Shown one piece after another: positions 5,169 to 38,649 of a DNA stretch of 51,266 nt; within the stretch, counting starts at the first letter, position 1, and the number at the start of each line of letters is the position of its first letter. The stretch comes from Lachnospiraceae bacterium (GTDB taxonomy: Bacteria; Bacillota; Clostridia; Lachnospirales; Lachnospiraceae): positions 1-51,266 of the forward strand of contig JAFTQM010000065.1 in the NCBI GenBank assembly GCA_017462755.1, in the 5' to 3' direction. Both the position numbers and the translations under genes were made by a program. The notes beneath the pieces are model-generated. The model was not told where the DNA came from. It searched no databases and saw nothing but the letters and a program-made list of their open reading frames with translations.

Positions 5169-5175
5169 CTGCCCT

Positions 5176-8430: not shown

Positions 8431-8545
8431 TCACTTTCCTCCATACAACTTTCGTTCTATTCTCCCTCATATCCCTTATACTACCTACCATTACACGATT
8501 ACGCTGCCCAATCTTGCAGCCTCACATCCGAAAGATTTCCAAAAA

Positions 8546-9535: not shown

Positions 9536-9570
9536 AGTAATACCTTTCTTCCCAACTCCTATTCCGACGA

Positions 9571-21679: not shown

Positions 21680-23407
21680 TTATTCTTCTCTCACAGCTTC
21701 CTCACGCTCTACACCGTCATAATACGCCTCAAGCTTTTCTCTGCACCGTAAAAATACCATTCCCATCTCCGGATCAAAATGCGTTCCCAGCGATTCCTGC
21801 ATAATCCTGTATGCCTGCTCGTAGCTCATCTTTTCCTTGTAGCAGCGGCGGCTTACCAGCGCATCATATACGTCTGCCAACGCCATGATTCGTGCCTCTA
21901 ACGGAATCTCTTCACCCCTTAGCCTCTCCGGATAACCGGTACCGTCCCAGCGCTCATGATGATAATGCGCGATATTCTTCGCAATCTGCACAAACTCTTC
22001 ATCCTCTACGCCCATCAATACGGTCTCGACAATCTTTTCACCGATTTCGGAATGTACCTTCATCAGACAATATTCTTCTTCTGTATATTTACCCGGTTTT
22101 CTAAGAATACGATCCTCTACCGCAATCTTACCCAAATCGTGCATCGGCGCTGCCTTGATTACATTGCTGCAGAATTTCTCCAGCTCCGGTGTCCGCCGCT
22201 CCATGCTGTTCTTCCACTCATTGACCAGAATCTCTACCACCTTACTGGTACGCTTAATGTGACCACCGGTATTAAAATCACGGTTCTCTACCATATTCGC
22301 CATACCGAGCACCATCTGATTCTGAATCGCCAGTACATGTGCCGTCTTTTCCTCTACCGCATGCTCCAGCTGTTCGTTGTAATTGTTCAGCAGACGGATA
22401 TACTCCTGCTGCTTTGTATCATCCAAAATTTCAATCAGATAACCCTTTTGCTTCTTTTCATGATACATCAGCGGACGAATCTTGCACTTATATTCCACTT
22501 CCCCATGCCGGAAATAGTGTACATTGTTCTCCGGATTTTCCCTAAATTCATCCATCCATACGATAATATGCGTTGTCAGCTTTCCTACCGGTGCAATCAA
22601 GCGGTCCACACGCAGTCTCTTCAGCTCCGGAAACTGCTCCTTCGCTACTTTGTTGCTGTTCAGATAATTGCGCTTCTGGTCAAAGGTCACATAACCGTAT
22701 CCGCTCTGCTCCTCAATCGTATTCCCAACAGTCATCGACACATCATGCATCTGAATCCGGTGAAGCAGCAGTAACAGCACGATACTGTCAATTATATACG
22801 CACAAGGAATGAACTCCAGCTTAATACCTAACAGCTTTTCCACCAAATAAATCAGCATAGACATAATATTGATCAGCACAATATAAATCATGTTCTTGTA
22901 AGAAACGATTCGTTTCTTTGCCAAAACATATGCAATCAATGCCAAATTGAGTATCACATAGCCAACCAGCAATATCAGATACAGGCGGTGTCCCCAGGCA
23001 TACTCCTTCTGTATGTAGGTGATTCCGTCAATCTTCGTCATTTCGACGCTCTTGTAATAAAAATCACCATACTCATAGAACAATACCATCATATAGACCG
23101 CGGTACTGCAGCAAACCATCGGTATCAGGAAGCACCGCTGCACTTTGCCGCGAATTCCGCTCAAATCCAGAATGATAAGACACACGAAAATCGGCAGAAA
23201 CAATCCGCCAATGTAAGCAAGCTTTGTACCAAGCATTGCTACCTCCAGCGTATTTGCCGTTACCGTAATAAAATAGCCGACATTCGCAAAGAAAATAATC
23301 GAAAAGATAATACCAAAGCAAATATTACCACGCTTTTGAAAATGTGCCAAAAATGCAATATTAAATATTGATAATATAATCGCTGCAACATACATTGCCA
23401 ATATCAT
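21680..23407 (-). CDS. 7TM–PAS–HD-GYP cyclic-di-GMP phosphodiesterase
   Basis: 575 residues from the ATG at 23407, which follows GAGGTGA; an in-frame extension to 23440 has no ribosome site. About seven membrane helices in the first 225 residues (histidine-kinase-type 7TM module), a PAS-like domain (about 235–330), a short coiled linker, then HD-GYP. The active site is complete: ENRDFNTGGHIKR, MHDLGKIAVEDRIL, HSEIGEKIV, HYHHERWDGTGYP and ADVYDALVSRRCY. It should hydrolyse c-di-GMP in response to a membrane signal. It is a single gene with a promoter 32–60 bp upstream and follows an ABC exporter operon. Compare the degenerate HD-GYP at 39.5 kb. Confidence 0.9.
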   Translation of the reverse strand: MILAMYVAAIILSIFNIAFLAHFQKRGNICFGIIFSIIFFANVGYFITVTANTLEVAMLGTKLAYIGGLFLPIFVCLIILDLSGIRGKVQRCFLIPMVCCSTAVYMMVLFYEYGDFYYKSVEMTKIDGITYIQKEYAWGHRLYLILLVGYVILNLALIAYVLAKKRIVSYKNMIYIVLINIMSMLIYLVEKLLGIKLEFIPCAYIIDSIVLLLLLHRIQMHDVSMTVGNTIEEQSGYGYVTFDQKRNYLNSNKVAKEQFPELKRLRVDRLIAPVGKLTTHIIVWMDEFRENPENNVHYFRHGEVEYKCKIRPLMYHEKKQKGYLIEILDDTKQQEYIRLLNNYNEQLEHAVEEKTAHVLAIQNQMVLGMANMVENRDFNTGGHIKRTSKVVEILVNEWKNSMERRTPELEKFCSNVIKAAPMHDLGKIAVEDRILRKPGKYTEEEYCLMKVHSEIGEKIVETVLMGVEDEEFVQIAKNIAHYHHERWDGTGYPERLRGEEIPLEARIMALADVYDALVSRRCYKEKMSYEQAYRIMQESLGTHFDPEMGMVFLRCREKLEAYYDGVEREEAVREE

Positions 23408-23438
23408 ATGTAAATCACCTCGTATTGAATATACTATC

Positions 23439-23467
23439 ATTTTACCCTTTTTTCAGCAAAAAAGCAA
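23439..23467 (-). promoter_or_regulatory. Probable promoter of the HD-GYP gene
   Basis: Minus strand TTGCTT (23467–23462), 17-bp spacer, TAAAAT (23444–23439), 32 bp before the start codon. Confidence 0.5.
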
Positions 23468-23641: not shown

Positions 23642-25549
23642 TTATGCACCGATTGCGTTTCCGGTGTATAACTGATAATATTTGCCCTTTTCTTCAATCA
23701 ACTGGTCATGCGTACCACGCTCAATAATACGTCCCTGCTCAAGTACCATGATACAATCCGAATTTCGTACCGTAGAAAGACGGTGTGCGATAACAAAGGT
23801 CGTTCTTCCGCTCATCAGGCGGTCCATGCCCTCCTGCACAATACGCTCAGTTCTCGTATCAATAGAGCTGGTTGCCTCGTCCAAAATCAATACCGGCGGG
23901 TCCGCAATCGCCGCTCTTGCAATCGCGAGCAGCTGTCTCTGTCCCTGACTCAGATTGGAACCATCTCCGGTCAGCATTGTATCATAGCCCTGCGGCAGTC
24001 TGCGGATAAAACTGTCGGCATTGGCAAGCTTTGCTGCTGCAATTACCTCCTCCTCCGTCGCATCCAGCTTTCCGAAACGTATATTCTCCTTTACCGTACC
24101 GGTAAAGAGATGCGTATCCTGTAATACAATGCCCAGCGAACGGCGCAGGTCATCCTTCTTAATCTTGTTGATGTTTATGCCGTCATACCGAATCTTACCA
24201 TCCTGAATATCATAAAAACGGTTAATCAGATTCGTAATCGTCGTCTTTCCGGCACCGGTCGAGCCGACAAATGCAATCTTCTGTCCCGGCTCTGCGAAAA
24301 GCTTGATATCGTGCAATACCATCTTTTCATCCGTATAACCAAAATCCACACCGTCAAAAACAACAGCTCCGCGCAGCTCCTTGTAGTCTACCGTACCATC
24401 TGCCTGATGCACATGCTTCCATGCCCAGCGTCCGGTACGCTCGGTGGTCTCGGTCAGTTGTCCGTTTACCTCCGCCGCGTTGACCAGCGTTACATAGCCC
24501 TCATCCAACTCCGGCTGCTCATCCATCAGCTTGAAAATACGCTCCGCACCTGCCATTGCCATAACAATCGCATTCATCTGCTGACTGACCTGATTGATTG
24601 GCATATTAAAGCTCTTATTGAAGGTCAGAAAGCTCGCCAGACCACCCAGCGTAAAGCCGCCGACTCCGTTTAACGCCAGCAAACCGCCGACCATGGCACA
24701 TACCACATAGCTCACATTACCTAACTGCGCATTAATCGGTCCTAAGATATTGGCAAAGGTATTCGCCCGATCCGCACTGACAAACAGCTTCTCGTTCAGC
24801 TCATGGAACGCCTTCTTGTTCTCTTCCTCATGACAGAACACCTTAACAACCTTCTGTCCGTTCATCATTTCCTCGATAAAGCCGTTAGCAGCTCCTAGAT
24901 TTCTCTGCTGCTCCAAAAAGTATTTGCCGCTGTTTCCTGCCGCCTTCTGTGTACAGAACATCATGACTGCAACCATAACCAGCGTAAGCACTGTCAACGG
25001 TACACTCAACACCAGCATACTGATAAACACGCTGACTACCGTAAATACACTGTTGATAATCTGCGGAATGCTCTGACTGACAAGCTGACGCAGCGTATCA
25101 ATGTCATTCGTATAAATCGACATAATATCGCCATGCGAATGCGTATCAAAATAACGAATCGGCAGCTTCTCCATCTTTTCAAACAACTCATTTCGCAGAT
25201 TGCGCAGCACGCCCTGCGTTACATTAATCATGATACGGTTGTAAGTAAAATTCGAAACAATACCAATCAGATAAAAAATCGCTACCCGTCCGATTGCCTT
25301 TGCCAACGGTGTAAAATCCGGTGCATCTGTCAACAGAAACGGTTCAATGTATTCATCAATCAAGGTCTTTGTAAACATTGTTCCCTGCACATTTGCAATT
25401 ACGCCCACAAATATAAGAACGAATACCAGCAAACAGGAAAATCTATAATCACGAAAAACATATTTCATTACGCGAGCCAGAAGCTTGCCCGGGTTTTTCA
25501 CCTGCGGCTTCATGCCTCTCGGTCCCTTCGGTCCCATTGGTACTGCCAT
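23642..25549 (-). CDS. Multidrug ABC exporter, catalytically competent half (BmrD/TM288-like)
   Basis: 635 residues: a cytosolic N-tail rich in Gly/Pro/Lys (MGPKGPRGMKPQVKNPG), six membrane helices, and a nucleotide-binding domain. Walker A is GSTGAGKTT, Walker B LILDEATSSID with catalytic Glu, and the switch His is present (VIAHRLST). The signature is LSQGQ rather than LSGGQ. About 50 extra residues (ERTGRWAWKHVHQADG) are inserted between membrane and ATP domains. Together with the upstream half (Walker B Asp, no switch His) this matches the asymmetric heterodimer pattern of BmrCD and TM287/288. It would export drugs or peptides/lipids. It starts 29 bp after the other half. Confidence 0.92.
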   Translation of the reverse strand: MAVPMGPKGPRGMKPQVKNPGKLLARVMKYVFRDYRFSCLLVFVLIFVGVIANVQGTMFTKTLIDEYIEPFLLTDAPDFTPLAKAIGRVAIFYLIGIVSNFTYNRIMINVTQGVLRNLRNELFEKMEKLPIRYFDTHSHGDIMSIYTNDIDTLRQLVSQSIPQIINSVFTVVSVFISMLVLSVPLTVLTLVMVAVMMFCTQKAAGNSGKYFLEQQRNLGAANGFIEEMMNGQKVVKVFCHEEENKKAFHELNEKLFVSADRANTFANILGPINAQLGNVSYVVCAMVGGLLALNGVGGFTLGGLASFLTFNKSFNMPINQVSQQMNAIVMAMAGAERIFKLMDEQPELDEGYVTLVNAAEVNGQLTETTERTGRWAWKHVHQADGTVDYKELRGAVVFDGVDFGYTDEKMVLHDIKLFAEPGQKIAFVGSTGAGKTTITNLINRFYDIQDGKIRYDGININKIKKDDLRRSLGIVLQDTHLFTGTVKENIRFGKLDATEEEVIAAAKLANADSFIRRLPQGYDTMLTGDGSNLSQGQRQLLAIARAAIADPPVLILDEATSSIDTRTERIVQEGMDRLMSGRTTFVIAHRLSTVRNSDCIMVLEQGRIIERGTHDQLIEEKGKYYQLYTGNAIGA

Positions 25550-25578
25550 AATTAACCTCCATTCCGAAGTAATTTTAC

Positions 25579-27318
25579 TTATTGTTCGTCAAAGTCACCA
25601 CTGCCGCCGGTCTGAGACTCATATACCTCACGGTAAATCTCATTCTTCTCCAGCAACTCTTCGTGTGTACCAAAGCCGTTGACCTCACCATCCTCCATGA
25701 CGATAATACGGTCTGCATCCTGTATACTGGAAACTCTCTGTGCAATAATTAGCTTCGTTGTATTTGGAATCTCCTCACGGAATGCCCGGCGAATCTTCGC
25801 ATCCGTCGCAGTATCTACCGCACTGGTCGAATCATCGAGAATCAGAATCTTCGGCTTTTTCAGCAAGGCACGCGCAATACACAGACGCTGCTTCTGACCG
25901 CCCGAAACATTGGTTCCTCCCTGCTCAATATGCGTATTGTAACCATCCGGAAAACGGTTAATAAATTCATCCGCACACGCAAGCTCACAGGCTCTTCTGC
26001 ATTCCTCATCCGTGGCATTCATATCGCCCCAGCGCAGATTCTCATAAATGGAGCCGGAGAACAGCACATTGTTCTGCAGCACAACCGCCACCTGATTTCG
26101 CAGTGCCTCCATATCATATTCTCTTACATCACGACCGCCAATCTTTACCGAACCCTCCGTTACATCGTACAGACGGCTTATCATGTTTACCAGACTCGTC
26201 TTTGCACTGCCGGTGCCACCGATGATACCGATGGTTTCGCCGGAGCGAATGTCCAGATTGATGTTCTTTAACACCAGCTTTTCACTGGTCTTGTAATAAG
26301 AGAAATTTACGTTTTCAAAGGAAATACTTCCGTCCGCTACCTCATATACCGGGTCTTCCGGATTCTTCAAATCGCTGGTTTCATTCAATACCTCCGAGAT
26401 ACGCTCCATACTGGCGGTACTCATCGAAATCATAACAAACACCATCGAAAGCATCATGAGATTCATCAGAATATTCATGCAATACGCCAGCAAGCTCATC
26501 AGCTCTCCGGTCGTCAGCTCACTGCCGACAATCATCTTGGCACCAAACCAACTGATTAATATGATACAGCCGTAAACGGTAAACTGCATCAACGGTGAAT
26601 TTAGTATTACATTGGTCTCTGCCTTAACAAAAATATTATAGATATTCTGACTCGCTTTTTTGAATTTGGAGGTTTCCTCCTCTTCTCTTACATACGCCTT
26701 TACAACTCGAATCGCAGACACGTTTTCCTGTACGGAGGCATTCAGCTCATCATACTTCGGAAACGCCATACGGAAATACTTCGTCGCACGGCGAATAATG
26801 AAAAAGAGCGCAACACCCAAAAACATTACCGCAATCAGATAAATCATCGAGAGCTTTGCATTAATCGAAAATGCCATAATCAGCGCACAAATCATGCTCG
26901 CCGGCGCTCTCATCATCATACGAAGTACCATCTGATAAGCATTTTGGAGATTGGTCACATCCGTAGTCAGACGAGTAACCAGTCCTGCCGTACTGAATTT
27001 GTCGATATTCGCAAAGGAAAAGGTCTGAATATGGTCAAACATCTTTCCACGCAGATTTTTTGCAAAGCCCGTCGCTGCCTTGGCGCCATACCGCCCGCCT
27101 GCCAGACCGCCAACCAGTCCAATCAGCGCTACTACAATCATCAACGCGCCGACCTTATAAATGTGATTCATATTTCCGGCATTCACACCATCATCAATGA
27201 TGGACGCCATCAAAAACGGAATCATCGTTTCCATCAGTACCTCCAGCAGCATAAAAAGCGGTGTTGCTATCGACGCTGCCTTGTACTCCTTTACCTCCTT
27301 TAACAGAGTTCGTAACAT
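25579..27318 (-). CDS. Multidrug ABC exporter, degenerate-site half (BmrC/TM287-like)
   Basis: 579 residues from the ATG at 27318, preceded by GGGGGAATAGT; this gives the normal half-transporter length, whereas an in-frame extension to 27465 has no ribosome site. Six membrane helices are followed by an ATP-binding domain with Walker A GGTGSAKT (Ala for Gly), a canonical signature NVSGGQKQR, Walker B ILILDDSTSAVD with Asp replacing the catalytic Glu, and Gln replacing the switch His (IAQRVSSI). These changes make one of the two ATP sites inactive, as known for heterodimeric exporters. First gene of a two-gene operon; no strong promoter was identified upstream. Confidence 0.92.
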   Translation of the reverse strand: MLRTLLKEVKEYKAASIATPLFMLLEVLMETMIPFLMASIIDDGVNAGNMNHIYKVGALMIVVALIGLVGGLAGGRYGAKAATGFAKNLRGKMFDHIQTFSFANIDKFSTAGLVTRLTTDVTNLQNAYQMVLRMMMRAPASMICALIMAFSINAKLSMIYLIAVMFLGVALFFIIRRATKYFRMAFPKYDELNASVQENVSAIRVVKAYVREEEETSKFKKASQNIYNIFVKAETNVILNSPLMQFTVYGCIILISWFGAKMIVGSELTTGELMSLLAYCMNILMNLMMLSMVFVMISMSTASMERISEVLNETSDLKNPEDPVYEVADGSISFENVNFSYYKTSEKLVLKNINLDIRSGETIGIIGGTGSAKTSLVNMISRLYDVTEGSVKIGGRDVREYDMEALRNQVAVVLQNNVLFSGSIYENLRWGDMNATDEECRRACELACADEFINRFPDGYNTHIEQGGTNVSGGQKQRLCIARALLKKPKILILDDSTSAVDTATDAKIRRAFREEIPNTTKLIIAQRVSSIQDADRIIVMEDGEVNGFGTHEELLEKNEIYREVYESQTGGSGDFDEQ

Positions 27319-27435
27319 ACTATTCCCCCATTCTGAAGCGATTTTTCTTGTTCTGCCATATTCTTCTTCCTTTCGCCCTTTTCTGTCATAGAATGCAAGC
27401 CTGCAAAGCAAACTCGCCTTCTGCCTCATGGTCAC

Positions 27436-27469
27436 AAAAATGCTCTGCCTATTCCGGCAGAGCATTTTT
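27436..27469. terminator. Terminator after the DegV-fused hybrid kinase
   Basis: AAAAATGCTCTGCC and GGCAGAGCATTTTT form a 14-bp stem with a 6-nt loop (TATTCC), good in both directions. It lies 80 bp after the stop at 27549 and ends the signalling operon. Confidence 0.85.
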
Positions 27470-27548: not shown

Positions 27549-30218
27549 TCACTTTTTCAAAAAGTAAGCAATTCCGATGGTTCCCATGCCCGAATTGCAG
27601 CTTGAGGATACGGACGATTGCTCCAAAATTACCTGTTCGAACGGCATCAGTCGCTTTATCTCACACAAAAGCTCCTCCTGCTGCTTCACGCTGCAGCCGG
27701 CATGCGTAACATAAACAATCCTTCGGTCTACTCTCCATTTGCGCCAAAATTGCAACCGGACATACTGACGAATTGCTGTATCAATTTTACCGAACCATGC
27801 CATCCGAATCGCTAAATGATCCTGTTTTATCTTCATACACGGATGCAAAGAAAGAAGCTCGCATAGCTTTGATACAAAACTATTCACATATCCTCTTTCC
27901 CGGAATATACGAATCGACGGCAACAAAAAGCTCGCTGAAATTCGAGGTTTTACCTTGCCCAGTTCACGGTAAATCTCCTGGATTCCGTATCCGTCCTTTG
28001 CCATCTTGGCAGCATGCAATACTAACAGTCCCTGACCTCCGGAAATATGCCCGGAATTAATGACATGCACATGTCCAAAGCTCTGCGCTGCTTTTACTGC
28101 CTTGTCATAGCTGCTTCCCATCTGTCCTCCCATAGAAATATGGATGACAGCCTCTGCGTCCGTCAACACCTCAGCAAAGAAATTTTCATATTCCTCCACC
28201 GATGCACTGTCTGCGTAAATATCGCTGCTGCAGGTGTTCATCTGCCGCGCCAGATTCTCTGAATCCAATTCCTTGGTATCTCGAAAACGTCCGTGACTTG
28301 TCTTTACATACAAATACATCAGTTGTATATCGTATTGCTCTCGCAATGCCTCCGGAATATCACATACGCAATCCGAGGTAATGCATATTTTTCTTCTCTT
28401 ACGCTTTACGGTAAATCTGCCGCTATCGCTTTGTACCTCGCTCTCGGTCTGGCGATATTCTACCACGTCTAACGGCAATAATTCCAGAATGCGCTCCTCT
28501 AACAGCAAGCCATTGACCGGTTTCTCCAGATAACCATGAAAGCCATAGGAAATATAGGTCTGCTCGCCACCCGGCAGTACATTACCGGTCAATGCAAGCA
28601 CCGGTGTTTCTCTGCACAGGCTGTTTTCCTGCTTACGCAGAGCACGCAGCGTCTCTAATCCGCTCATTTCCGGCATCATATAATCCATCAGAATCACATG
28701 ATAATACTTCTTTGCCGCAGCCTCCAGACATTCCTTGCCGCTTCTCGCTACATCCACCTGCACTCTGGTTGCACGCAGCAGCTTCGCTACCACCGATGCA
28801 TTCATCTCGTTATCATCCACCAGCAATATCTGTGCCTCCGGTGCTTCAAACAGCTGCCGATACTGCTGCCGCTCCACTGCTACATTCTGTATCAGCGTTG
28901 CCGCATTTTCAATCGGAGTCGAGTCAATGACCTTCTGCTCCAGCGTTACCGTAAACGTCGAACCCTTCGTGTAGATACTGTCTACCGTAATCTCGCCACC
29001 CATCATGTCGGTCAGCTGCTTTGTAATCGCCAGACCCAGTCCGGTGCCCTCTACCTTATGTGTATTGGCGGCATCCACCCGCTGAAACGAATCGAACAGA
29101 CCGCTCATATCCTCTTTTTTGATACCGATTCCGGTGTCCGCAATGGTCATCCGCAGCCGAATTCGGTCTGCTGCAAGCCACTCATTATGTACCTCCAGCG
29201 TAACCGAACCATTTTTCGTATACTTGACGGCATTGGACAGGATATTCAGCAACACCTGACTGATACGCTTTTCATCTCCATGCAGGGTTTTTGGCAGACT
29301 CTCATCAATATGAACCAAAAACTCCAAATTCTTTTTTCTTGCATTTACCTTAACCAGCTTTACAATACGCTCTAACAGCAATCTGGTATCATAATCTGCC
29401 GGAATAATTTCCATCTTGCCCATCTCTATCTTGGACATATCCAGAATATCGTTGACCAGCTCTAACAGCATCACGCTGGCATTCTGAATGTCGATGGCAT
29501 TTTCCATGATTTCTTCCGAAGCACCCTCGCGCAGAATCATCTCATTCAAACCGATAATGGTATTAATCGGTGTACGGATTTCATGACTCATATTGGCAAA
29601 AAAGGTATCCTTCGAGCGTCCCAGCAGCTCTAACTCCTTCGTACGCTTCTTTACTTTTTTCCATTCCTTATCATACATATTGATTTGGAATTTTAAGATT
29701 GCAGAAATGGTAATACCGACCAACAGCATGGAAAACATCGTATCAAAGAATGTATTTTCATGCACAACCAATTTTTCCGCAAATTCCGGATAAAAGTATG
29801 TAGCCGAATACAGCGCAATGTCCACTCCGATTGCCAGTATAGCAAATACAATCAGTCTTTTTCCGTGAAACATCAGGGTAACATATGCCATACCCAGCAC
29901 CAGCCAGATTTCTGCTCCGCCGCCTACGCCGCCATAACCGAGAAATACCAGCGGAAGCAGGAAAAAAATCAGCAATATGCCAAGCAGAATCGTAGCAATG
30001 TCTGTTTTCTCTGCCATAAAGGTAAGATAGCCGGAATACAGCATAATCGCAAGCGATACCAACAACGCTACCATCAGCCAGGAAAATCCGTGCAATACCG
30101 CTTCCTCCAGCACCGCCAGCGCAAACACTACGGTACCAAGAGCCAACAATATTCGAAAGAAGCGTTCTTTTATTTCAATTTCTTTTCCTGCTATCATTTC
30201 ATAGATACGCTTTATCAT
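27549..30218 (-). CDS. Hybrid histidine kinase fused to a full-length DegV (fatty-acid-binding) domain
   Basis: 889 residues. About six membrane helices in 1–176, then HisKA with phospho-acceptor His212 (ANMSHEIRTPINT), an ATPase domain (N-box LLNILSNAVKYT, DTGIGI, GTGLGLAITK), a receiver at 461–575 with Asp512 (LMDYMMPEMSG) and Lys566, and a linker with KRKRRK. From 609 to the end (280 residues, the length of a whole DegV protein) lies a DegV domain: ICITSDCVCDIP, VIHISMGGQMGSSYDKA, VHVINSGHISGGQGLLVLHA, and a C-terminal GMGTIGIAYF. Some usual ligand residues differ (no GGR motif). DegV/FakB proteins bind fatty acids, so lipid sensing is inferred. Last gene of the chemosensory operon, 35 bp after another hybrid kinase. 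Confidence 0.88.
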   Translation of the reverse strand: MIKRIYEMIAGKEIEIKERFFRILLALGTVVFALAVLEEAVLHGFSWLMVALLVSLAIMLYSGYLTFMAEKTDIATILLGILLIFFLLPLVFLGYGGVGGGAEIWLVLGMAYVTLMFHGKRLIVFAILAIGVDIALYSATYFYPEFAEKLVVHENTFFDTMFSMLLVGITISAILKFQINMYDKEWKKVKKRTKELELLGRSKDTFFANMSHEIRTPINTIIGLNEMILREGASEEIMENAIDIQNASVMLLELVNDILDMSKIEMGKMEIIPADYDTRLLLERIVKLVKVNARKKNLEFLVHIDESLPKTLHGDEKRISQVLLNILSNAVKYTKNGSVTLEVHNEWLAADRIRLRMTIADTGIGIKKEDMSGLFDSFQRVDAANTHKVEGTGLGLAITKQLTDMMGGEITVDSIYTKGSTFTVTLEQKVIDSTPIENAATLIQNVAVERQQYRQLFEAPEAQILLVDDNEMNASVVAKLLRATRVQVDVARSGKECLEAAAKKYYHVILMDYMMPEMSGLETLRALRKQENSLCRETPVLALTGNVLPGGEQTYISYGFHGYLEKPVNGLLLEERILELLPLDVVEYRQTESEVQSDSGRFTVKRKRRKICITSDCVCDIPEALREQYDIQLMYLYVKTSHGRFRDTKELDSENLARQMNTCSSDIYADSASVEEYENFFAEVLTDAEAVIHISMGGQMGSSYDKAVKAAQSFGHVHVINSGHISGGQGLLVLHAAKMAKDGYGIQEIYRELGKVKPRISASFLLPSIRIFRERGYVNSFVSKLCELLSLHPCMKIKQDHLAIRMAWFGKIDTAIRQYVRLQFWRKWRVDRRIVYVTHAGCSVKQQEELLCEIKRLMPFEQVILEQSSVSSSCNSGMGTIGIAYFLKK

Positions 30219-30253: not shown

Positions 30254-33010
30254 TTACCTTTCGAACTTTTCCTTAATTCCGGTCAACACACTCAGTGCCG
30301 ACATATAATCCGACATCTCTATCTTTTTGTGTAACGGTGCGAGCGCCTCGCGCAATGCATTTCCCCGATAACTGTACTTTTGAAGTTCTGCCAATACCGC
30401 ATACATCTCGGTTACATCAAAGGAATACGCTGCATTCTCAAATTCTGTTGTCAGGCGTGCAAAATCGGATGCGCTTAATTCCTCCCCCGCCTCCTGCGGC
30501 TCTGCCTCTACGGTTGCTTCCTCTGCCGTCTCTGCCTGTTGCCCGCCAATCAGCTCATGCTCCTGCAATATGGCAAAAATCCGGTCGTATTCCTCTAACA
30601 TTGCCCCATGATGCTTTTGCAGATACTCTTCGTCACCGTTCTTTCCTGCCTGCTCCAAAGCCTTCGCCATTTCAGACAGTCTTGCAACACCGATACTTGC
30701 CATGCCGCTCTTTAATGCATGCACCTGTATCGTGTAATTCTTCCAATCTGCCGCCATAAACAGCTGCTGAAGCTGCTCTCTGGTCTGCGCACTGTTTGTA
30801 TAATACATTCGCAACGCTTCGATATAATTTTCCAGACTACCGCAGTACGAGATTCCCTTCTTTACATCAAAGTCCTCCGCAAAGAACTCATTTCCGTTCT
30901 CCTGCTGCGCTTTTTCCACATTCTTTTGCTCGGATACCTTGATAATCTTATTTCTCGGAATATGACGCTTTAATACACGCTCCAACACCGAAAGCTCCAC
31001 CGGCTTCGATACATAATCCTGAAATCCGTTGGTAAGAAACATTTCCCGCACACCGGCAATCGCATTGGCGGTCAGTGCAATAATCGGCACCTCTTTGTAA
31101 TAGCTGCCCTGCTTTTCACGGATATGCTGCAGTGTTTCAATACCGTCCATCTCCGGCATCATATGATCCATAAATACAAAATCATAATTCATGGATTCGA
31201 TTTTTTCCAGTGCCTGACGACCGCTGATGGCTGCCGTCACACGCACCTGATACGGCTTCAATAAGCCCTCAAGTACTCTGGTGTTCATTACATTATCATC
31301 AACCACCAAAATATGCGCATCCGGCGCAATAAAGCGCTCCTGATGCAGATGATATGCTTCGGTAGTACTGTGCGCCAGCTTTTCCTCATTCAGCACCGAC
31401 ACGACATTCAGCAAGAAAAACGGCTTAAACAGACGCTTTATCTGTGGATTGGTCAATCGTTTTTCCTGCATATGGTCTACCGCAACAACCACATTCGTAC
31501 TAAATGCCATTTCATCAAAATAATCTACTGCATTCCAATATTCACTCAGCCCAAGAAAGATATGTGTCAGCTTTTCTCTTTCCGAACATCTCTTTAATTC
31601 AGCCAAATCCTGGCAAGCATAGCATTTGATACCCAGCTGCTCTGCCATATGCACAATCTGCGTCCGATACTCGTTGCGAAGTGCCGGTAAGGTAAAATGC
31701 TCTCTGTCCAGATAAACGGCAATATTCATTTCCTTTGCATTATATACTGAAACGATAGGTGTCTCGTTTACTACCTTTTGCGGAATTACAAACTGCACCT
31801 CGCTGCCTTTTCCATATTCACTGCGGACGGTCAAAAATCCGCCCATTTTCTGTATGATTGCCTGCGAAATCGCCAGTCCGAGTCCGATTCCCTCTCCCCG
31901 GCGGTTTCTGCTGGTATCTACCTGATTGAAGCTGGTAAACAGCTTCTCTAAACTTTCCTGTGTCATACCGATACCGGTATCCTTAATTGACACAATCAGG
32001 TTCATTCCATAGCTTTCCTTACGATAGCCGACCCGAATGGATACATAGCCCTCATTGGTAAATTTGATTGCATTTCCGACCAGATTCATCATAACGCGTC
32101 GAATCTTCTGCTCATCACCAATCAAACCTGCCGGCAGGGTCGCATCACAATCCACCAGCAGCTCGACCGGCTTTTCATACAGCTTTGCCATTGAGATGCT
32201 GATAATATCGTTTAAGGTTGAGGAAATATTGTATTCCTCCTCTACTACTGCTACATTTCCGGATTGCAGCTCCGAAAAATCCAAGATATCACTTACAACC
32301 GAAAGCAGGTTTCTTCCTGCGTTCTGAATGCTGTACACATTCTCCTGCATGCCGTCCTCCAAACGCTCACGCAGTATAATCTCACTAATACCGCAAATGG
32401 TATTAATCGGAGTACGGATTTCATGACTGACATTCGCCAGAAAATCATCCTTACTCTTCTCCATGTTTTTCAAATCTTCAATGGTTTGCTGCAGACGTAC
32501 TTGATTTCCCTTCTGCCGTTTTACCAGATAATCCAGCGCATACTGCGTACAATATACCGGCACCAGACCAAAAAATACCCTTATAAAATCTCCCACCGAA
32601 TTTATCTCTATTGTATGAAGTCCACAAACATGAAATACTGCCATTCCTGTAATCGAAATGAAAGCCAGCAATATCGGTCCCCGCATTTCATACAAAGCAA
32701 GCAATACTAAAATTGCCATATATGTAGGTAATGCCTGTGATAAGCTTCCCAAAAATGCAGAATATACTCCTGCCGCTACTTGTAACAGAATCGTCAGGAA
32801 ATATACGCGGAATGAATAAGTACGGAACCGAACAAAAAATTGAACCCATGCGCTGGCGAGCGCAATGCCTATCAGGGCAAATGTCATCTTCGGAATTTGC
32901 TCATGGGACATCAGAAAAAGAATGGCGATAACATAGATACTATAAACCGTCAGCACCAATCTCTCTCTATTCCTCAATTTTTTCTCCTGAAATACCTTTT
33001 CTTCCTGCAT
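30254..33010 (-). CDS. Membrane hybrid histidine kinase with pseudo-receiver, receiver and Hpt domains
   Basis: 918 residues from the ATG at 33010 (AGGTG upstream). About six membrane helices (18–165), HisKA with His196 (LANVSHEIRTPIN), an ATPase domain (DTGIGM, GEGIGLGLAIS), then a segment about 418–540 that resembles a receiver but has lost the Asp (IFLGLSEYWNAVDYFDEM). A true receiver follows (566–680) with Asp615 (MDHMMPEMDG) and Lys669, then an Hpt domain with His764 (VHALKSGMASIG). The last 75 residues form a helical module also present at the end of the PAS kinase at 40.6 kb. The protein can pass phosphate His–Asp–His within one chain, feeding an external receiver. Confidence 0.9.
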   Translation of the reverse strand: MQEEKVFQEKKLRNRERLVLTVYSIYVIAILFLMSHEQIPKMTFALIGIALASAWVQFFVRFRTYSFRVYFLTILLQVAAGVYSAFLGSLSQALPTYMAILVLLALYEMRGPILLAFISITGMAVFHVCGLHTIEINSVGDFIRVFFGLVPVYCTQYALDYLVKRQKGNQVRLQQTIEDLKNMEKSKDDFLANVSHEIRTPINTICGISEIILRERLEDGMQENVYSIQNAGRNLLSVVSDILDFSELQSGNVAVVEEEYNISSTLNDIISISMAKLYEKPVELLVDCDATLPAGLIGDEQKIRRVMMNLVGNAIKFTNEGYVSIRVGYRKESYGMNLIVSIKDTGIGMTQESLEKLFTSFNQVDTSRNRRGEGIGLGLAISQAIIQKMGGFLTVRSEYGKGSEVQFVIPQKVVNETPIVSVYNAKEMNIAVYLDREHFTLPALRNEYRTQIVHMAEQLGIKCYACQDLAELKRCSEREKLTHIFLGLSEYWNAVDYFDEMAFSTNVVVAVDHMQEKRLTNPQIKRLFKPFFLLNVVSVLNEEKLAHSTTEAYHLHQERFIAPDAHILVVDDNVMNTRVLEGLLKPYQVRVTAAISGRQALEKIESMNYDFVFMDHMMPEMDGIETLQHIREKQGSYYKEVPIIALTANAIAGVREMFLTNGFQDYVSKPVELSVLERVLKRHIPRNKIIKVSEQKNVEKAQQENGNEFFAEDFDVKKGISYCGSLENYIEALRMYYTNSAQTREQLQQLFMAADWKNYTIQVHALKSGMASIGVARLSEMAKALEQAGKNGDEEYLQKHHGAMLEEYDRIFAILQEHELIGGQQAETAEEATVEAEPQEAGEELSASDFARLTTEFENAAYSFDVTEMYAVLAELQKYSYRGNALREALAPLHKKIEMSDYMSALSVLTGIKEKFER

Positions 33011-33040
33011 CTTTATCACCTACTCTGCGTCTAAAAGTCA

Positions 33041-33081: not shown

Positions 33082-34431
33082 TTAATACTTTCCAAAGCCC
33101 TCGCCTAAGGAAATAATTCTTTCATTGTCATTGCCTGCATAGGTCTTTCTGGCGGATTTCGTCATAGCCACCATAGACATTTCACGACTGTCACCAACCT
33201 GATAAGCCGAAAGCAGCTCTCTCATGTGGATTGCCTGATTTGAAAGCTCTTCACTGGCCGCCGCACACTCTTCGCTTGTTGCAGAATTGGTCTGAACTAC
33301 CTGCGATACCTGACCAATCGCCTGGTCTACCTGAGCTACTGCCGTTGCCTGATAGTTCGAAGACTCTGCAATTCCATTGATAAGTACTTCACTCTTCTGT
33401 ACCGCTTCGGTAATCTCTGCTAATGCCTTCGCAGTATCATCCGCAATCTTGGAGCCTGCTGCTACCTTTGCAATCGAATCCTCGATTAACTCTGCTGTTT
33501 CCCCTGCCGCCGCAGAACACTTTGCTGCCAGATTACGAACCTCTTCTGCTACTACTGCAAAGCCCTTGCCGGCATCACCTGCTCTTGCTGCCTCTACTGC
33601 TGCATTCAGTGCCAGAATATTGGTCTGGAATGCGATATCATCAATTACCTTAATAATCTTGGAAATGCTCTCGGAAGACTTGTTAATATCCTCCATTGCT
33701 GCCACCATCTGATGCATTTGCTCATTTCCTTCTTTTACATCTTCAATTGCATGTCCTACCAGCTCAGCTGCTGTATTTGCCTGTGTTGCGTTCGTTCTGG
33801 TCTTTTCTGCGATATCATCAATCGAAGCAGTGATTTCTTCGATGGCGCTTGCCTGCTCTGTGGAACCCTGTGCCAGTGCTTCACTTGCGCTTGCTACCTG
33901 TGCAGAACTGGTCATTACCTGATATGCAGCCTCCTTGATACTGGTAATCGACTGACGATTACCAGCTAACATCTGCTTTAAGGAAAGATTCAGGATATCC
34001 TTATTCGAACGAGGCGTAATCTCTACCAGCATATTACCGGTTGCTGCCTCTTCCATTACCTTCTCCTGATTACGCATATTTTCTACCATTACCTGATATG
34101 CGTCAATCAACTGACCAAACTCATCATTTGAACGCTTCTCCAGCTTTACATCCGTATTACCTGCTGCAATCTCTGCCGTTGCATCAAGCAGCTGCTTCAT
34201 CGACGTACGAATCGTACGAAGAACAGTAAGAGATAATGTTGCACTAATTGCTACAAATGCGATAAAAAGAATTGCGGTATAGTATCCGTAGGATTTCAAA
34301 TATCCGACCGGATCCGTTTCTCCTACCATATGCTCTGCTGTTGCATAACCAGAATACAAGGTCCATACCAATAATAAATCTAAAATAAAAAATCCAAGAC
34401 CTACTTTCTTATATAATGACCAATTTTTCAT
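33082..34431 (-). CDS. Methyl-accepting chemotaxis protein with minimal external domain
   Basis: 449 residues. Helix at about 10–28, an outside loop of only about 20 residues ([19 protein letters not shown]), second helix at 49–70, HAMP (about 72–125), then the signalling hairpin with the conserved tip [20 protein letters not shown]. Without a ligand domain it may sense the membrane state or a partner protein. No CheR-docking pentapeptide at the C-terminus. Its ATG overlaps the cheW stop by one base (TAATG), so the two are translationally coupled; it is the only receptor in the cluster. Confidence 0.93.
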
Positions 34432-35000
34432 TACGCTTCCTCCTCTTTCCCTTGTGCTTTTTTACCTGCTTCACCCTGCTCCGCATCCTCGGCTGCCTGC
34501 TCCATGAACGCCAGGTCTTCATCATTGATTAACTTGTCCGGATCCAGCAAAAGCTTTACATCCTCACCAACCTTACCGATTGCATAAACATAATGATTCT
34601 GCATCCGGTCCGCCTTACCGATGGACGGTGATGGTAAAATATGCTCTTGGCGAATTTCTACGACCTCAGCAATCTTTTCTACAATCAGACCAACTACCGT
34701 CGATTTTACGTTAATCACAATGATACAGGTTCTGTCATTGTATTCAAACGGATCTTTCTTAAAACGTAACCGTACATCAATGACAGGAATAATCTTTCCA
34801 CGCAGATTAATGAGTCCCTTAATATAATCCTCACACTCAGGAATCGCCGTAATTTCCTGGAATACTATAATTTCCTGAACATACTGGATTTTTAATCCGT
34901 AATATTCGTTCCCGGACTTGAAGGTCACATATTTCCACTGCTGTGCATCAGATTCATCGTTGGTATTCATTACCAAGTCTGCCTTCTTATCTTCATCCAT
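34431..35000 (-). CDS. cheW: Chemotaxis coupling protein CheW
   Basis: 189 residues from the ATG at 35000, with AGAAAGGA upstream; reading further back starts within the end of cheA at a TTG and was rejected. The CheW fold spans about 20–160: [38 protein letters not shown] and [15 protein letters not shown]. An acidic, low-complexity tail ([19 protein letters not shown]) extends beyond the usual end. It links the receptor encoded next to it with CheA. Confidence 0.94.
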
Positions 35001-35025
35001 CAAACTTTTTTCCTTTCTGCTTATT

Positions 35026-37176
35026 TTATTCAAGGAATGCCGCAGGATCCAAAATCAAAGCAATGCTACCGTCTCCTAACTGGGTACAGCCCGACAATCC
35101 TTTTACTTTCTTTATGTATGCCGGAATCGGCTTTACTACGATTTCCTGCTTGCCGATTAAGCGGTCTACAAACAAGCAAATCTCCTTGCCGTCTACCTCC
35201 AGAATCAGCATCATGCCGTCCTTTACATCTCTCTTGTAATTCTTCAGGTGATACCATTCACCCAGACGCATTACCGGATAGCATACGCCACGAATCATGA
35301 CGGACTCGGTACCGTTCGGGTCATGAATCATCATGTTCTCACGAACACTGACAAATTCCTTTACCACACCGGTTTCGATTACAAACGAGGACTCGCCCGC
35401 CTGCATTACCACACCGTCAATGATTGCCAGAGTCAACGGAATCTTCAAAATCATCGTACTGCCCTGTCCCGGTGTACTTTCAATTTCCAACGTACCGCCG
35501 ATTGCCTGAATGTTGGATACTACAACATCCATACCTACGCCACGACCGGAATATTCCGTTACCTGCTCCTTTGTCGAAAAGCCCGGCAATGTAATAAACT
35601 GATATACTTCCTTGTCGGTATAAGCACTGTCCGGCTTATCCCACTCCAAAAGTCCCTGTCTTCTCGCCTTCGCAATAATCTGCTCGCGGTTCAGACCCTT
35701 ACCGTTGTCCTGCACACTAATCCATACCTTACCGGATTCCGTCTTTGCAGACAGGGTAACTCTGCCTCGCTCCTTCTTGCCCTTTGCTTCTCTTTCTTCC
35801 TTCGTTTCGATACCATGATCGACCGAATTTCGCACGAGATGCATCAGCGGGTCAGAAATATGCTCAATAATATTCTTATCTACCTCGGTCGTATCTCCCA
35901 CCATCTCAAACTCGATATCCTTACCAAGCTTTCTGGAAACATCGAACACGATTCGATTCATCTTTTGGAACGTATTGGTCAGCGGCATCATACGCATCGA
36001 CATAATAACGTTCTGCAAATCCGTTGAAATCTTCGACATCTGCCGCGCTGCCTTGCGGAAGTTGTCTAACTTCAAGCCCGGTACCTTTAAGTCGGAATTC
36101 TGCAATACTACCGATTCTGCAATTACCAGCTCGCCGATTAAATCCATCAGCATATCCATCTTGCTGACATCCACACTGATGAACGCTGCCTTTTCCTGCT
36201 TCTTCGGCTTGTCCTTTGCTAACTTCTTTACCTTACCCGGTTCCTTGGACTCAATAACGAAATCACCCGGTGCAATCTGCTTCTTCGGCTCCGGCTTTGC
36301 CTCCTCCGGCTTCTTTTCCACAATAACGGTATCCTCGCCGGCACTTTCCTCAATCAGAATCTCCGTTCCGATGCTGTCAAAGCCCATCTGGTATTCTTTT
36401 GCCGTACACTCGGCTATATCAACGCTTTCGATATCGTAGCCTACGCCGATAATACCCTTGATTTCTTCTGCACTGCTCTGAGACTGCAGTAAAATCTTAA
36501 AGCCGTTCTTTGCAATCTCCTCCGCCGCATTTTCATCCGAAATAATATCCTCCGGCAAATACAGCATATCCTCTGCGATTTCCTTCAGAGAGTAAACCGC
36601 CTTATATGCATGCACATTTACAAGCTCAGTTCCCTTTACAAAGGTAATATAAATCTTGTAAAAATGGCTTGCACTGGTTGCCATCGGCGCAATATAAAAC
36701 TGCTTTGGTGCTTCGTAGGTGTTTCCCTTCGGCTCTTCCTTCTTGCCCTTCTTTGAGCTGCCGCCTTCACCCTTGATTTTGTTCAAAAACTCGTCCAGAC
36801 CGGCTACCAAATCACCGGATTTTCCATCCGCTGCTTCGCCATTCTGGAGCTTGTCCATCTCGCCGGTAATGAAATCCGCAACCTCCAGCACATGCTCTAC
36901 CAGTTCCATATGCGGTACATTCTGCGGATGTGATTCTCTCAAATAGTAGAATACATCCTCCAGCTTATGAGCAATTACCGTTACTTCATCAAACATCATA
37001 ACGCCGGATGAACCCTTAATCGTGTGCATGGTTCGGAATATTTCATTAATGCCGTCTTCATCAAAGGCATCGGCATCCTTCTGTTCCAGAACGATTTCCT
37101 GCAATCGCTCTAACAGCTGCTGATTCTCAAACAAATATATGTCGAGCATGCCTTCGGTGCTAAACTCTTCAGACAT
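35026..37176 (-). CDS. cheA: Chemotaxis histidine kinase CheA
   Basis: 716 residues. P1 domain with phospho-accepting His51 (RTMHTIKGSSGVM); a P2-like region (about 165–285, FYKIYITFVKGTELVNVHA); a Lys/Glu/Pro-rich linker; P3 dimerisation (about 335–400); P4 ATPase (HLVRNSVDHGIET, DNGKGLNREQ, TEYSGRGVGMDVVVS); and the CheW-like P5 domain (about 585–716). It phosphorylates the CheY-like receiver and CheB encoded just upstream. Order RR–cheA–cheW–receptor, with 25–39 bp gaps. Confidence 0.95.
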   Translation of the reverse strand: MSEEFSTEGMLDIYLFENQQLLERLQEIVLEQKDADAFDEDGINEIFRTMHTIKGSSGVMMFDEVTVIAHKLEDVFYYLRESHPQNVPHMELVEHVLEVADFITGEMDKLQNGEAADGKSGDLVAGLDEFLNKIKGEGGSSKKGKKEEPKGNTYEAPKQFYIAPMATSASHFYKIYITFVKGTELVNVHAYKAVYSLKEIAEDMLYLPEDIISDENAAEEIAKNGFKILLQSQSSAEEIKGIIGVGYDIESVDIAECTAKEYQMGFDSIGTEILIEESAGEDTVIVEKKPEEAKPEPKKQIAPGDFVIESKEPGKVKKLAKDKPKKQEKAAFISVDVSKMDMLMDLIGELVIAESVVLQNSDLKVPGLKLDNFRKAARQMSKISTDLQNVIMSMRMMPLTNTFQKMNRIVFDVSRKLGKDIEFEMVGDTTEVDKNIIEHISDPLMHLVRNSVDHGIETKEEREAKGKKERGRVTLSAKTESGKVWISVQDNGKGLNREQIIAKARRQGLLEWDKPDSAYTDKEVYQFITLPGFSTKEQVTEYSGRGVGMDVVVSNIQAIGGTLEIESTPGQGSTMILKIPLTLAIIDGVVMQAGESSFVIETGVVKEFVSVRENMMIHDPNGTESVMIRGVCYPVMRLGEWYHLKNYKRDVKDGMMLILEVDGKEICLFVDRLIGKQEIVVKPIPAYIKKVKGLSGCTQLGDGSIALILDPAAFLE

Positions 37177-37215
37177 AGATTTCTCCTTCCTTCCGATTTT
37201 TCCTGTATCGTATCA

Positions 37216-37608
37216 CTAAATGAGTCCCAGCTTTTTTAATGCCTGCTCAAATCGTTCCTGATCAATTGGCTTTCCCGAATAAATCGTACAGCCCAAATCA
37301 AACGCCATCTTTACGTTCTTCTCATCATTCAGCGCGGTTGCCATAATGACCTTTACCGCCTGATCCTCCGGGATATTTCGCTCCTTCTCAATGTTGCGGA
37401 TACCCATCAGTGCCTGATAGCCATCCATGACCGGCATCATGATATCCAGACAAACCAAGTCATACGGCTCATCCTCTTCCATCGCCATCATAAACGCATC
37501 TACGGCCTCCATGCCGTCTACGGTAACATCACAATCACCGTATTTGGACAGGAAATTCATCATAAATTTTCTTGTTACAAAATCATCCTCTGCAAGTAAA
37601 ATTCTCAT
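37216..37608 (-). CDS. CheY-like single-domain response regulator
   Basis: 130 residues, receiver domain only. Acidic pocket AEDD (Asp8/Asp9), phospho-acceptor Asp55 (LVCLDIMMPVMDG), Thr91 (ATALND) and Lys113 (SGKPID). It directly adjoins the cheB stop codon. No effector domain, so it acts as a phosphate carrier or protein-binding switch. The sequence is closer to 'stand-alone carrier' receivers (DIMMPVMDGYQAL) than to motility CheY; there is no flagellar switch gene in the window. Confidence 0.9.
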   Translation of the reverse strand: MRILLAEDDFVTRKFMMNFLSKYGDCDVTVDGMEAVDAFMMAMEEDEPYDLVCLDIMMPVMDGYQALMGIRNIEKERNIPEDQAVKVIMATALNDEKNVKMAFDLGCTIYSGKPIDQERFEQALKKLGLI

Positions 37609-38649
37609 TTAATCCCCTTCTCTCTGCATATTATTTAAAATTGAATACGTTCTTCTTGCTATATCCGGCAGCTTTTCCTGATATCTCACTGCCCCTAAGT
37701 CATACGCTACCTTTGGCATACCGTAGACAACACAGGTGGATTCATCCTGACCTATGGTCTGCGCACCCGCATTTCGCATTGCAAGCAGTCCCTTGGCTCC
37801 GTCACCGCCCATGCCTGTCAGTATAATGCCGACTGCTTTTGCACCTGCTACATTTGCGACCGACTCAAACAGCACATCGACCGACGGTGAATGACCGTTG
37901 ACCTTAGGTCCCTTCTTACATTCGACCTGATAGCCTCCATTGACCTTTACCAGTCTCATGTGGGCATCTCCGCCCGGTGCCAAAAGCACCTGTCCCGGCA
38001 TGACCCGGTCTCCGGTTTTGGCTTCCTTTACCCGGACTCTGCATTTATCATTCAACCGGTTCGCATACATTTCTGTAAAGCCCGGCGGCATATGCTGTAC
38101 TATCACAACTCCCGGGATGTTCGCTCCAAACTCCTGTATTACAGTCGCTATCGCTTCTGTTCCACCGGTCGATGCTCCGATGGCAATTACCATATCGTCT
38201 CCTGATTTCAGGGAAGCATCTGCGTTTGGTGATACCGTTCGCTTGAGATTGCCGATTTTGGCTGTCGAAGCAATCTTTATCTTCACTGCCAGCTCGCTTT
38301 TTATGAAATATTCCAGCTGACTCCTGTCTGAAACAACCGGCTTTGCCACAAAATCTACCGCTCCCGCCTGCAGTGCATCAAATACCTTATCACTCAATGC
38401 ACTTATCATAACCACCGGCAACGGATACTGCGGCATCAGCTTTCTCAAAAACTCGATTCCGTTCATCCGCGGAAGCTCAATATCCAAAGTCATAACATCC
38501 GGCTTATACTTGATAATGGCATCCCTCGCCTCAAATGGGTCGGAGGCGGTCGCTACGACCTGTATCGCCGGGTCTTTATTCAAATTTCGCACGAGCAATT
38601 CCCGAAATACTAAGGAATCCTCTACTACCAATACTCTGATTTGACGCAT
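37609..38649 (-). CDS. cheB: Chemotaxis protein-glutamate methylesterase CheB
   Basis: 346 residues, normal length. Receiver with Asp56 (DVMTLDIELPRMNG); the C-terminal esterase has the catalytic triad Ser160 (AIGASTGGTEA), His186 (IVQHMPPGFT) and Asp283 (GMGGDGAKG), at almost the same positions as in E. coli. It removes methyl groups from the receptor. Placed between cheR (8 bp gap) and the CheY-like gene (no gap). Confidence 0.96.
   Translation of the reverse strand: MRQIRVLVVEDSLVFRELLVRNLNKDPAIQVVATASDPFEARDAIIKYKPDVMTLDIELPRMNGIEFLRKLMPQYPLPVVMISALSDKVFDALQAGAVDFVAKPVVSDRSQLEYFIKSELAVKIKIASTAKIGNLKRTVSPNADASLKSGDDMVIAIGASTGGTEAIATVIQEFGANIPGVVIVQHMPPGFTEMYANRLNDKCRVRVKEAKTGDRVMPGQVLLAPGGDAHMRLVKVNGGYQVECKKGPKVNGHSPSVDVLFESVANVAGAKAVGIILTGMGGDGAKGLLAMRNAGAQTIGQDESTCVVYGMPKVAYDLGAVRYQEKLPDIARRTYSILNNMQREGD

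Follow-up and report, generated by a model that had tools for sequence, protein, structure and literature searches.

DegV domains joined to a two-kinase operon of Lachnospiraceae: a putative lipid-responsive module of a His-Asp phosphorelay

Herein, we describe a gene of a Lachnospiraceae bacterium (assembly GCA_017462755.1) that encodes a hybrid histidine kinase ending in a DegV domain. The gene lies on the minus strand of contig JAFTQM010000065.1, whose 51,266 nucleotides are the stretch of DNA that was analysed, hereafter the window. DegV proteins are known as FakB, carriers by which fatty acids are presented to FakA. Far from being a lone oddity, the fusion of such a domain to a kinase is one of the forms taken by a two-kinase operon that is widespread. 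A histidine kinase-receiver-DegV (HK-REC-DegV) gene and a histidine kinase-receiver-histidine phosphotransfer (HK-REC-Hpt) gene stand side by side on one strand, with their phospho-sites intact. We read the pair as a His-Asp phosphorelay with two adjacent membrane hybrid kinases, in which DegV would be a cytoplasmic, probably lipid-binding regulatory module; to this reading as a whole we give a probability of about 0.58. That the fusion and the gene pair are real is practically certain, and that the two kinases share one relay is highly probable from their sequences. DegV would be a new input or regulatory module within a known kind of system.

The gene is a single uninterrupted frame with an ATG start and no internal stops. 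A sequence-only reading of the window had recognised a six-helix hybrid kinase whose receiver is followed by a complete DegV domain. Its domain order was correct, because Pfam places HisKA, HATPase_c, Response_reg and DegV in that order (E-values 2.4e-16, 1.4e-27, 1.2e-20 and 2.3e-32, respectively). The hidden Markov model search with PF02645 that it had proposed gave a near-full-length match (112.9 bits against a cut-off of 27 bits, covering profile positions 1-278 of 280), and the NCBIfam DegV model TIGR00762 agrees (122.9 bits, cut-off 99.7). The nearest solved structures by profile are DegV/FakB chains, e.g., 2dt8, 1pzx and 4x9x. A hydropathy scan gave about five separate hydrophobic segments at residues 23-179, ahead of the kinase core; a sixth helix is plausible. 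The features of the protein are as follows.

27549..30218, minus strand: hybrid histidine kinase with C-terminal DegV (HK-REC-DegV), 889 amino acids (open reading frame, Pfam; same architecture in 76 of 80 loci)
29679..30161, minus strand: N-terminal hydrophobic (membrane) region, residues ~20-180 (hydropathy scan; no Pfam match)
29421..29612, minus strand: HisKA, residues 203-266, phospho-acceptor H212 (Pfam; H212 in 68 of 68 aligned proteins)
28935..29279, minus strand: HATPase_c, residues 314-428 (Pfam)
28491..28829, minus strand: receiver, residues 464-576, phospho-acceptor D512 (Pfam, alignment of 68 proteins)
28392..28490, minus strand: linker, residues 577-609 (alignment; 33-36 residues in 62 of 68 proteins)
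27561..28391, minus strand: DegV domain, residues 610-886, with A669, G701, Y777, F809 and N875 opposite FakB1 T62, S95, R173, R205 and H270 (Pfam, alignment)

The window protein keeps the marks of a hybrid kinase: the HisKA histidine, the HATPase boxes, and the aspartate and lysine of the receiver. H212, N325, D361, G391, D469, D512 and K566 are invariant in all 68 aligned proteins, which comprise the window protein and 67 of its 76 full-length homologues (alignment A3; alignment A2 contained 69 of the 76, plus the window protein). In 62 of the 68, the receiver and DegV are spaced by 33-36 residues.

Next, we considered whether the fusion could be an artefact of assembly or gene calling that joined two genes, for which the draft state of the assembly, with its 99 contigs, might speak; the sequence-only reading had itself allowed for such a join between residues 575 and 610. 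The full architecture (hydrophobic region-HisKA-HATPase-REC-DegV) was found in 76 of 80 loci from other assemblies. These loci are the best 80 of 255 confirmed relatives from named genomes, which were scanned with the DegV domains of 12 fusions, so the set is biased to similarity. Two of the remaining four loci are cut at the contig start (L046, L047) and two have broken frames (L109, L122), and all four join DegV to a receiver. Since the 76 loci share the order, and the linker is of near-fixed length, the fusion is no assembly accident, and an artefact is refuted as an explanation, with a residual chance close to nil.

The survey of architectures that had been suggested was extended to 397 genomes of the window's family, an evener sample than the 80 loci. 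At least 103 places in at least 74 of these genomes scored above 250 bits, and at least 92 of them, in at least 67 genomes, sit in frames of at least 700 amino acids. Only best places were counted, with at most six candidates scored per genome, and the 250-bit line omits at least one fusion (G185, 215.7 bits); therefore 74 of 397 is a lower bound. Relatives of the fusion in named genomes come mostly from Lachnospiraceae or genera within it. Eleven more full-length homologues, with 35-48% identity, were found in 7 of 60 other genomes, from seven genera. Outside the family, the fusion was seen in a single genome from a different family of the order (295 genomes, the window's family included) and in three genomes of one family of the class (391 genomes, likewise including the window's family). 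The fused DegV kinases L175 and L201-L203 come from two other families of the order or class. Since L175 branches very near sequences of the window's family in the tree, a recent transfer or a binning error is suggested for it. Carriage on mobile elements was considered and rejected: a close-relative scan of viral contigs with the DegV domain found none, the 18 matches in phage records all had less than 60% identity (best 29.8%), and so did the 8 matches in plasmid records. The sequences thus give no sign of travel on phages or plasmids.

The fusion gene does not stand alone. The DegV frame could be called in 78 loci, and in 72 of them a HisKA-HATPase-REC-Hpt gene, hereafter the partner, lies directly upstream in the same orientation, with gaps of -146 to 58 bases between the two genes. 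Among the six loci without a called partner, five have less than 2.2 kb of sequence upstream (including the broken-frame locus L109) and one, L122, has broken frames. L058 also carries the pair and went uncounted owing to a longer antisense frame. In the window, the partner gene ends 35 bases upstream of the DegV kinase gene, and a chemotaxis cluster precedes it.

30254..33019, minus strand: partner hybrid kinase HisKA-HATPase-REC-Hpt, 921 amino acids, Hpt motif at H767 (open reading frame, Pfam, motif)
33082..38649, minus strand: chemotaxis cluster in front of the pair, with methyl-accepting chemotaxis protein (MCP), CheW, CheA, single receiver (37216-37608) and CheB (open reading frames, Pfam)

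The gene in front of the partner could be classed in 70 loci: it is MCP-like in 20, a receiver with an HD-GYP motif in 19, a receiver without this motif in 19, and something else in 12. An MCP-like protein, a REC-HD-GYP protein or a lone receiver hence precedes the pair in 58 of the 70. These MCP and HD-GYP labels rest on sequence motifs; the MCP was checked with Pfam in the window, whose gene order (CheB, receiver, CheA, CheW, MCP, partner, DegV kinase, all on the minus strand) places it in the MCP class. Pfam confirmed REC-HD-GYP in L048 and L038, and REC-GGDEF in L043, L158, L262 and L264. Fourteen of the 19 receivers without the HD-GYP motif share a four-base overlap with the partner. Behind the DegV gene, inspection by eye showed variable genes except among close relatives. 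A further cyclic di-GMP gene stands at L071, where a PAS-GGDEF-EAL protein (7916-9592) is encoded directly behind the pair.

DegV also meets the phosphorelay in other arrangements. Eighteen unusual places were fetched and read. Two of them (L168, L169) proved to be DegVs of the ordinary kind, with no kinase in the stretch, and one (L162) was cut short; in the other 15, kinase and Hpt genes were all nearby. At L157-L160, DegV is a separate gene directly behind an HK-REC-Hpt gene and encodes a free protein of 283-302 amino acids. It is split from its kinase at L156, fused straight to Hpt behind an HK-REC gene at L163 and L164, and N-terminal at L165, L166 and L173; at L172 it ends a protein with HATPase, in which a receiver was not found. 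The protein of L165 (2808-7544) has 1578 amino acids and runs from the N-terminal DegV through dCache, HisKA, HATPase and receiver to Hpt. L043 and L044 have the order HK-REC-DegV-Hpt, and the adjacent HK-REC kinase lacks Hpt; L043 carries two additional HK-REC-Hpt genes close by. At L040, Hpt is on a separate protein of 325 amino acids. The DegV matches of L157, L160, L163, L165, L166, L170 and L172 were confirmed with Pfam; the remaining ones were identified by profiles built in this analysis. These arrangements are most simply read as a single pathway of DegV, kinases and Hpt, in which attachment of DegV to the receiver would be dispensable. The free-standing DegVs behind HK-REC-Hpt genes look like a simpler form. 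A sister kinase at L018 (1492-3918) has the same kind of N-terminal region and HK-REC, with Hpt in the place of DegV.

To place these domains among DegV proteins, we compared 172 of them, the distinct ones of 205 matches that filled at least 230 of 290 alignment columns: 121 fused (68 from named-genome loci and 53 from other loci), 5 encoded beside a kinase, and 46 ordinary. The ordinary ones are mostly those most like alignment A1 and are a non-random sample. A quick tree search covered 88 of the 172 (47 of the 121 fused, 5 of 5 beside a kinase, 36 of the 46 ordinary), with midpoint rooting. The 52 signalling DegVs, fused or beside a kinase, split from the 36 ordinary ones with a branch support of 99. 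Among the five free-standing signalling DegVs, four branch off near the base of the signalling side, while the fifth, from the split locus L156, lies inside the fused ones; under the midpoint root this is consistent with the free-standing form having come first.

The residues that separate the two sides are those by which FakB1 works. According to PMC8892158, the fatty acid is held in FakB1 by a Ser171-His270-Thr62-carboxylate-Ser95 network; Arg173 and Arg205 are described there as completely conserved, with Arg205 the key residue for FakA binding. Positions were read from a MAFFT alignment in FakB1 numbering. The 46 ordinary DegVs keep Thr62 in 45, Ser95 in 46, Arg173 in 46, Arg205 in 45 and His270 in 45, and have Gly at the Ser171 position in 44. 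On the signalling side, Arg205 is kept in 2 of 121 fused domains and in none of the 5 beside a kinase, and His270 likewise in 2 of 121 and 0 of 5; Asn replaces it in 109 fused domains and in all 5. When domains were thinned to less than 60% identity, this Asn was found in 44 of 49 fused domains, and His in 29 of 30 ordinary ones. Other positions are lost in part. Arg173 is present in 53 of 121 fused domains (beside a kinase, Arg in 2 of 5 and Lys in 3), and Ser95 in 65 of 121 and 5 of 5. Position 62 is Ser in 77, Ala in 24 and Thr in 7 of the fused domains, and Thr or Ser in 5 of 5 beside a kinase. Thr/Ser62 and Ser95 occur together in 63 of 121 and 5 of 5, and both positions are apolar in 31 of 121, the window protein included. 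New clade-wide positions were also gained: Thr, Gly, Phe and Glu of a T..G.F....E stretch, and Ser for Gly six columns before the Asn. Since Arg205 and His270 are lost and new clade-wide positions are gained, the signalling DegV domain appears to have been consistently rebuilt away from FakA service, and in all probability the clade does not serve FakA.

The sequence-only reading had also noted that the GGR motif and part of the TS pocket deviate in the window protein, and the alignment bears this out: Phe stands at the FakA-docking Arg205, and Ala, Gly, Asn and Tyr at Thr62, Ser95, His270 and Arg173, respectively. A plain fatty-acid carboxylate is not an obvious ligand of the window protein, because the known carboxylate-binding residues are gone. 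How far the polar pair at positions 62 and 95 is retained varies with the class of locus. Of 14 domains from receiver-only loci, 12 have Ser62 and 12 have Ser95, so that the pair mostly survives there; in MCP-type loci it is largely gone, with Ser95 left in 2 of 18, and in HD-GYP loci, where 6 of 17 have Ser95, the picture is mixed. Judged from these residues, a lipid ligand is somewhat favoured for the clade as a whole, while for the window protein the balance tips slightly the other way. A fatty-acid carboxylate would be a fair guess for part of the clade and a weaker one for the window protein, for which a neutral lipid, a differently held acyl group and no ligand at all are open candidates.

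We propose that phosphoryl groups would pass from the kinase histidine to the receiver aspartate, then to the Hpt domain of the locus, and then to the response regulator encoded next door. The target in the window would probably be the CheY-like receiver at 37216-37608 or the chemotaxis machinery; at other loci it would be a REC-HD-GYP or REC-GGDEF enzyme of cyclic di-GMP. DegV may take an acyl chain or another hydrophobic ligand from the cytosol or the membrane. Depending on whether it is loaded or empty (open or closed), the balance of kinase and phosphatase activity would shift in the kinase to which it is fused or next to which it is encoded. The helical portal of FakB1 opens and closes during ligand exchange at the membrane (PMC8892158), and a two-state DegV on a linker of near-fixed length to the receiver could shift the balance of the kinase. 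Since almost all members of the clade have lost the FakA-docking Arg and the pocket His, the cargo would not be handed over to FakA. More tentatively, and below even odds, a DegV clade may have left fatty-acid activation and now serve as receptor for a two-kinase phosphorelay, through which a free acyl or other apolar signal would control chemotaxis or the cyclic di-GMP level. This would be an undescribed class of lipid sensing in Lachnospiraceae and some other Clostridia, functionally parallel to the diffusible signal factor (DSF) system RpfC-RpfG, with an unrelated receptor domain.

Several observations weigh against a lipid-responsive relay of this kind. On the side of the ligand, the polar head-group network is largely lost in the window protein's own subgroup: among the 14 fused domains nearest to it, Ser95 is present in none and position 62 is apolar in 12. 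No conserved lipid-metabolism neighbour of the pair stood out when looked for by eye. As to the relay, L043, L166 and L171 each have more than one Hpt gene, which makes the serving Hpt ambiguous there, and at L041 (a contig of 4992 bases) a receiver gene, not the partner kinase, stands directly in front of the DegV kinase. Partner-like HK-REC-Hpt genes with 29-33% identity and no adjoining DegV were found at L256, L258, L259 and L260, and five genomes of the same genus (completeness 67-98%) gave no full-length match to the fusion. The distribution is therefore patchy, and the five genomes, together with the partner-like genes, indicate that the relay can do without DegV. A fifth partner-like gene, L257, is cut at the contig end. 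Two stricter rules were given up on this evidence: exactly one Hpt per locus, which L043, L166 and L171 contradict, and a partner that occurs only with DegV, which the four genes rule out.

The loss of pocket residues could also mean that DegV gave up lipid binding and became a ligand-free scaffold, a dimerisation or docking platform for the kinases, Hpt and response regulator. The 31 fused domains with both position 62 and position 95 apolar, among them that of the window, and the loss of His270 in 119 of 121 agree with this, and a docking role would fit with DegV occurring at varied positions with respect to the kinase. However, Thr/Ser62 and Ser95 persist together in the 63 fused domains and in all five beside a kinase. 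Moreover, because free-standing proteins of 283-302 amino acids persist at L157-L160 and the window DegV matches 278 of 280 Pfam positions, the whole domain seems still to be under selection. We consider a pure scaffold unlikely, at somewhat under one chance in four.

In the commonest form DegV follows the receiver, the usual place of an output domain, and a FakA-like gene is present in the genome; DegV might then be an effector, with receiver phosphorylation controlling acyl uptake or delivery to FakA or a membrane enzyme. The FakA-docking Arg (role as in PMC8892158) is nevertheless lost in 119 of 121 fused domains, and DegV is also found as a separate protein, joined to Hpt with no receiver, at the N-terminus, or with HATPase where a receiver was not found (L172), so an effector role is improbable. 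Least likely of all, and hardly to be expected, is that DegV replaces Hpt as a phosphohistidine carrier, DegV belonging to the EDD fold group with EIIA-Man and DhaK (a grouping taken from the title of a reference). The Hpt of L018 in the place of DegV would suit this, as would two columns in which His is frequent among fused DegVs (112 and 103 of 121), but the same columns hold His in 30 and 15 of the 46 ordinary DegVs, and the partner or the locus retains an Hpt. In conclusion, a DegV that regulates the relay, probably as a lipid-binding module, remains our preferred reading. Of the two directions that the sequence-only reading had offered for a lipid-responsive switch, a change of phosphotransfer by the acyl-bound state stays the best one, the ligand being inferred; control of acyl binding by the receiver, and with it delivery to FakA, is disfavoured, because the Arg and His are lost nearly throughout and DegV also occurs without a preceding receiver.

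Further genes surround the pair in the window. Two ABC exporter genes, each encoding a membrane and an ATPase domain, lie behind the DegV kinase gene on the same strand (23642-27465); none was seen by eye behind the pair in other loci. A protein of 586 amino acids (21680-23440) joins an N-terminal seven-transmembrane region of histidine-kinase type to an HD domain of the HD_5 kind, and is possibly a cyclic di-GMP enzyme near the relay. A SpoIIE-like phosphatase of 467 amino acids is encoded at 19933-21336. Its match to the SpoIIE N-terminal model covers only positions 353-600 of 605, and since it begins at position 353, the protein lacks the earlier N-terminal part. The source genome is a draft of 2.73 Mb in 99 contigs, 81.7% complete, of which the window is contig 34. 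It also carries three further DegV genes, which fall among the ordinary DegVs in the tree, and one FakA-like gene; therefore classical fatty-acid activation is probably also present. On contig 74 (L266), two DegV genes of the ordinary kind stand in tandem (4581-6531).

If our reading is true, an entire clade of DegV proteins would be dedicated to a phosphorelay and constitute an input module new to histidine kinases, and lipid state would be tied to motility and cyclic di-GMP in gut commensals. The replacement of His270 by Asn, together with the loss of Arg205, gives a simple rule by which signalling DegVs may be told from carrier DegVs. The free-standing forms are small soluble proteins, which makes the ligand question directly testable. 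The remark in the sequence-only reading that no sensor with a terminal DegV in a phosphorelay protein is known to have been described is supported: no earlier description of a DegV kinase was found in the literature searched, by titles and abstract openings among the matches listed, with subscription papers mostly outside.

Compared with known systems, the hybrid kinases of the BarA, TorS and ArcB type (NCBIfam) resemble the pair in that the kinase core, the receiver and the Hpt of the partner align with the models. However, every kinase model fell below its cut-off among the 25 models listed per protein (TorS 299.6 against 676.5 bits; BarA, for the partner, 353.3 against 890). With the FakB/DegV carriers (PF02645; FakB1 and FakB2 of Staphylococcus aureus) the window protein shares a full-length DegV match. 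It differs from them in that DegV is fused to or encoded with a hybrid-kinase phosphorelay and in its residues: 119 of 121 fused domains lack the FakA-docking Arg, as many lack the pocket His, and the window protein also lacks Thr62, Ser95 and Arg173. FakB4 of Streptococcus pyogenes, a DegV thought by its authors to bind acyl chains without feeding phospholipid synthesis (PMC10138225), may by analogy serve as a precedent for a DegV that is no FakA feeder. DegV/FakB biology is linked to a histidine kinase in the FakAB-SaeRS system of S. aureus as well, but FakB and SaeS are separate proteins there; according to PMC5539427, neither SaeS nor SaeR was phosphorylated by FakA or FakB, fatty acids act as inhibitors of signalling by SaeS, and the fatty-acid kinase affects SaeRS without direct phosphotransfer.

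RpfC/RpfG, the DSF-sensing system of Xanthomonas (PMC5391125), resembles the pair by its domain make-up, a membrane hybrid kinase with receiver and Hpt, and by its fatty-acid theme, and it exemplifies how a membrane hybrid kinase that has an HD-GYP partner can be driven by a fatty acid. Systems of this type are also characterised by a five-helix input region with a 22-residue sensor of DSF, and by a DSF synthase gene. Of 70 loci, 19 have a REC-HD-GYP regulator ahead of the pair, while the window has a chemotaxis cluster instead. RpfC senses DSF through a short N-terminal region (PMC5391125), whereas here DegV and a second hybrid kinase are added.

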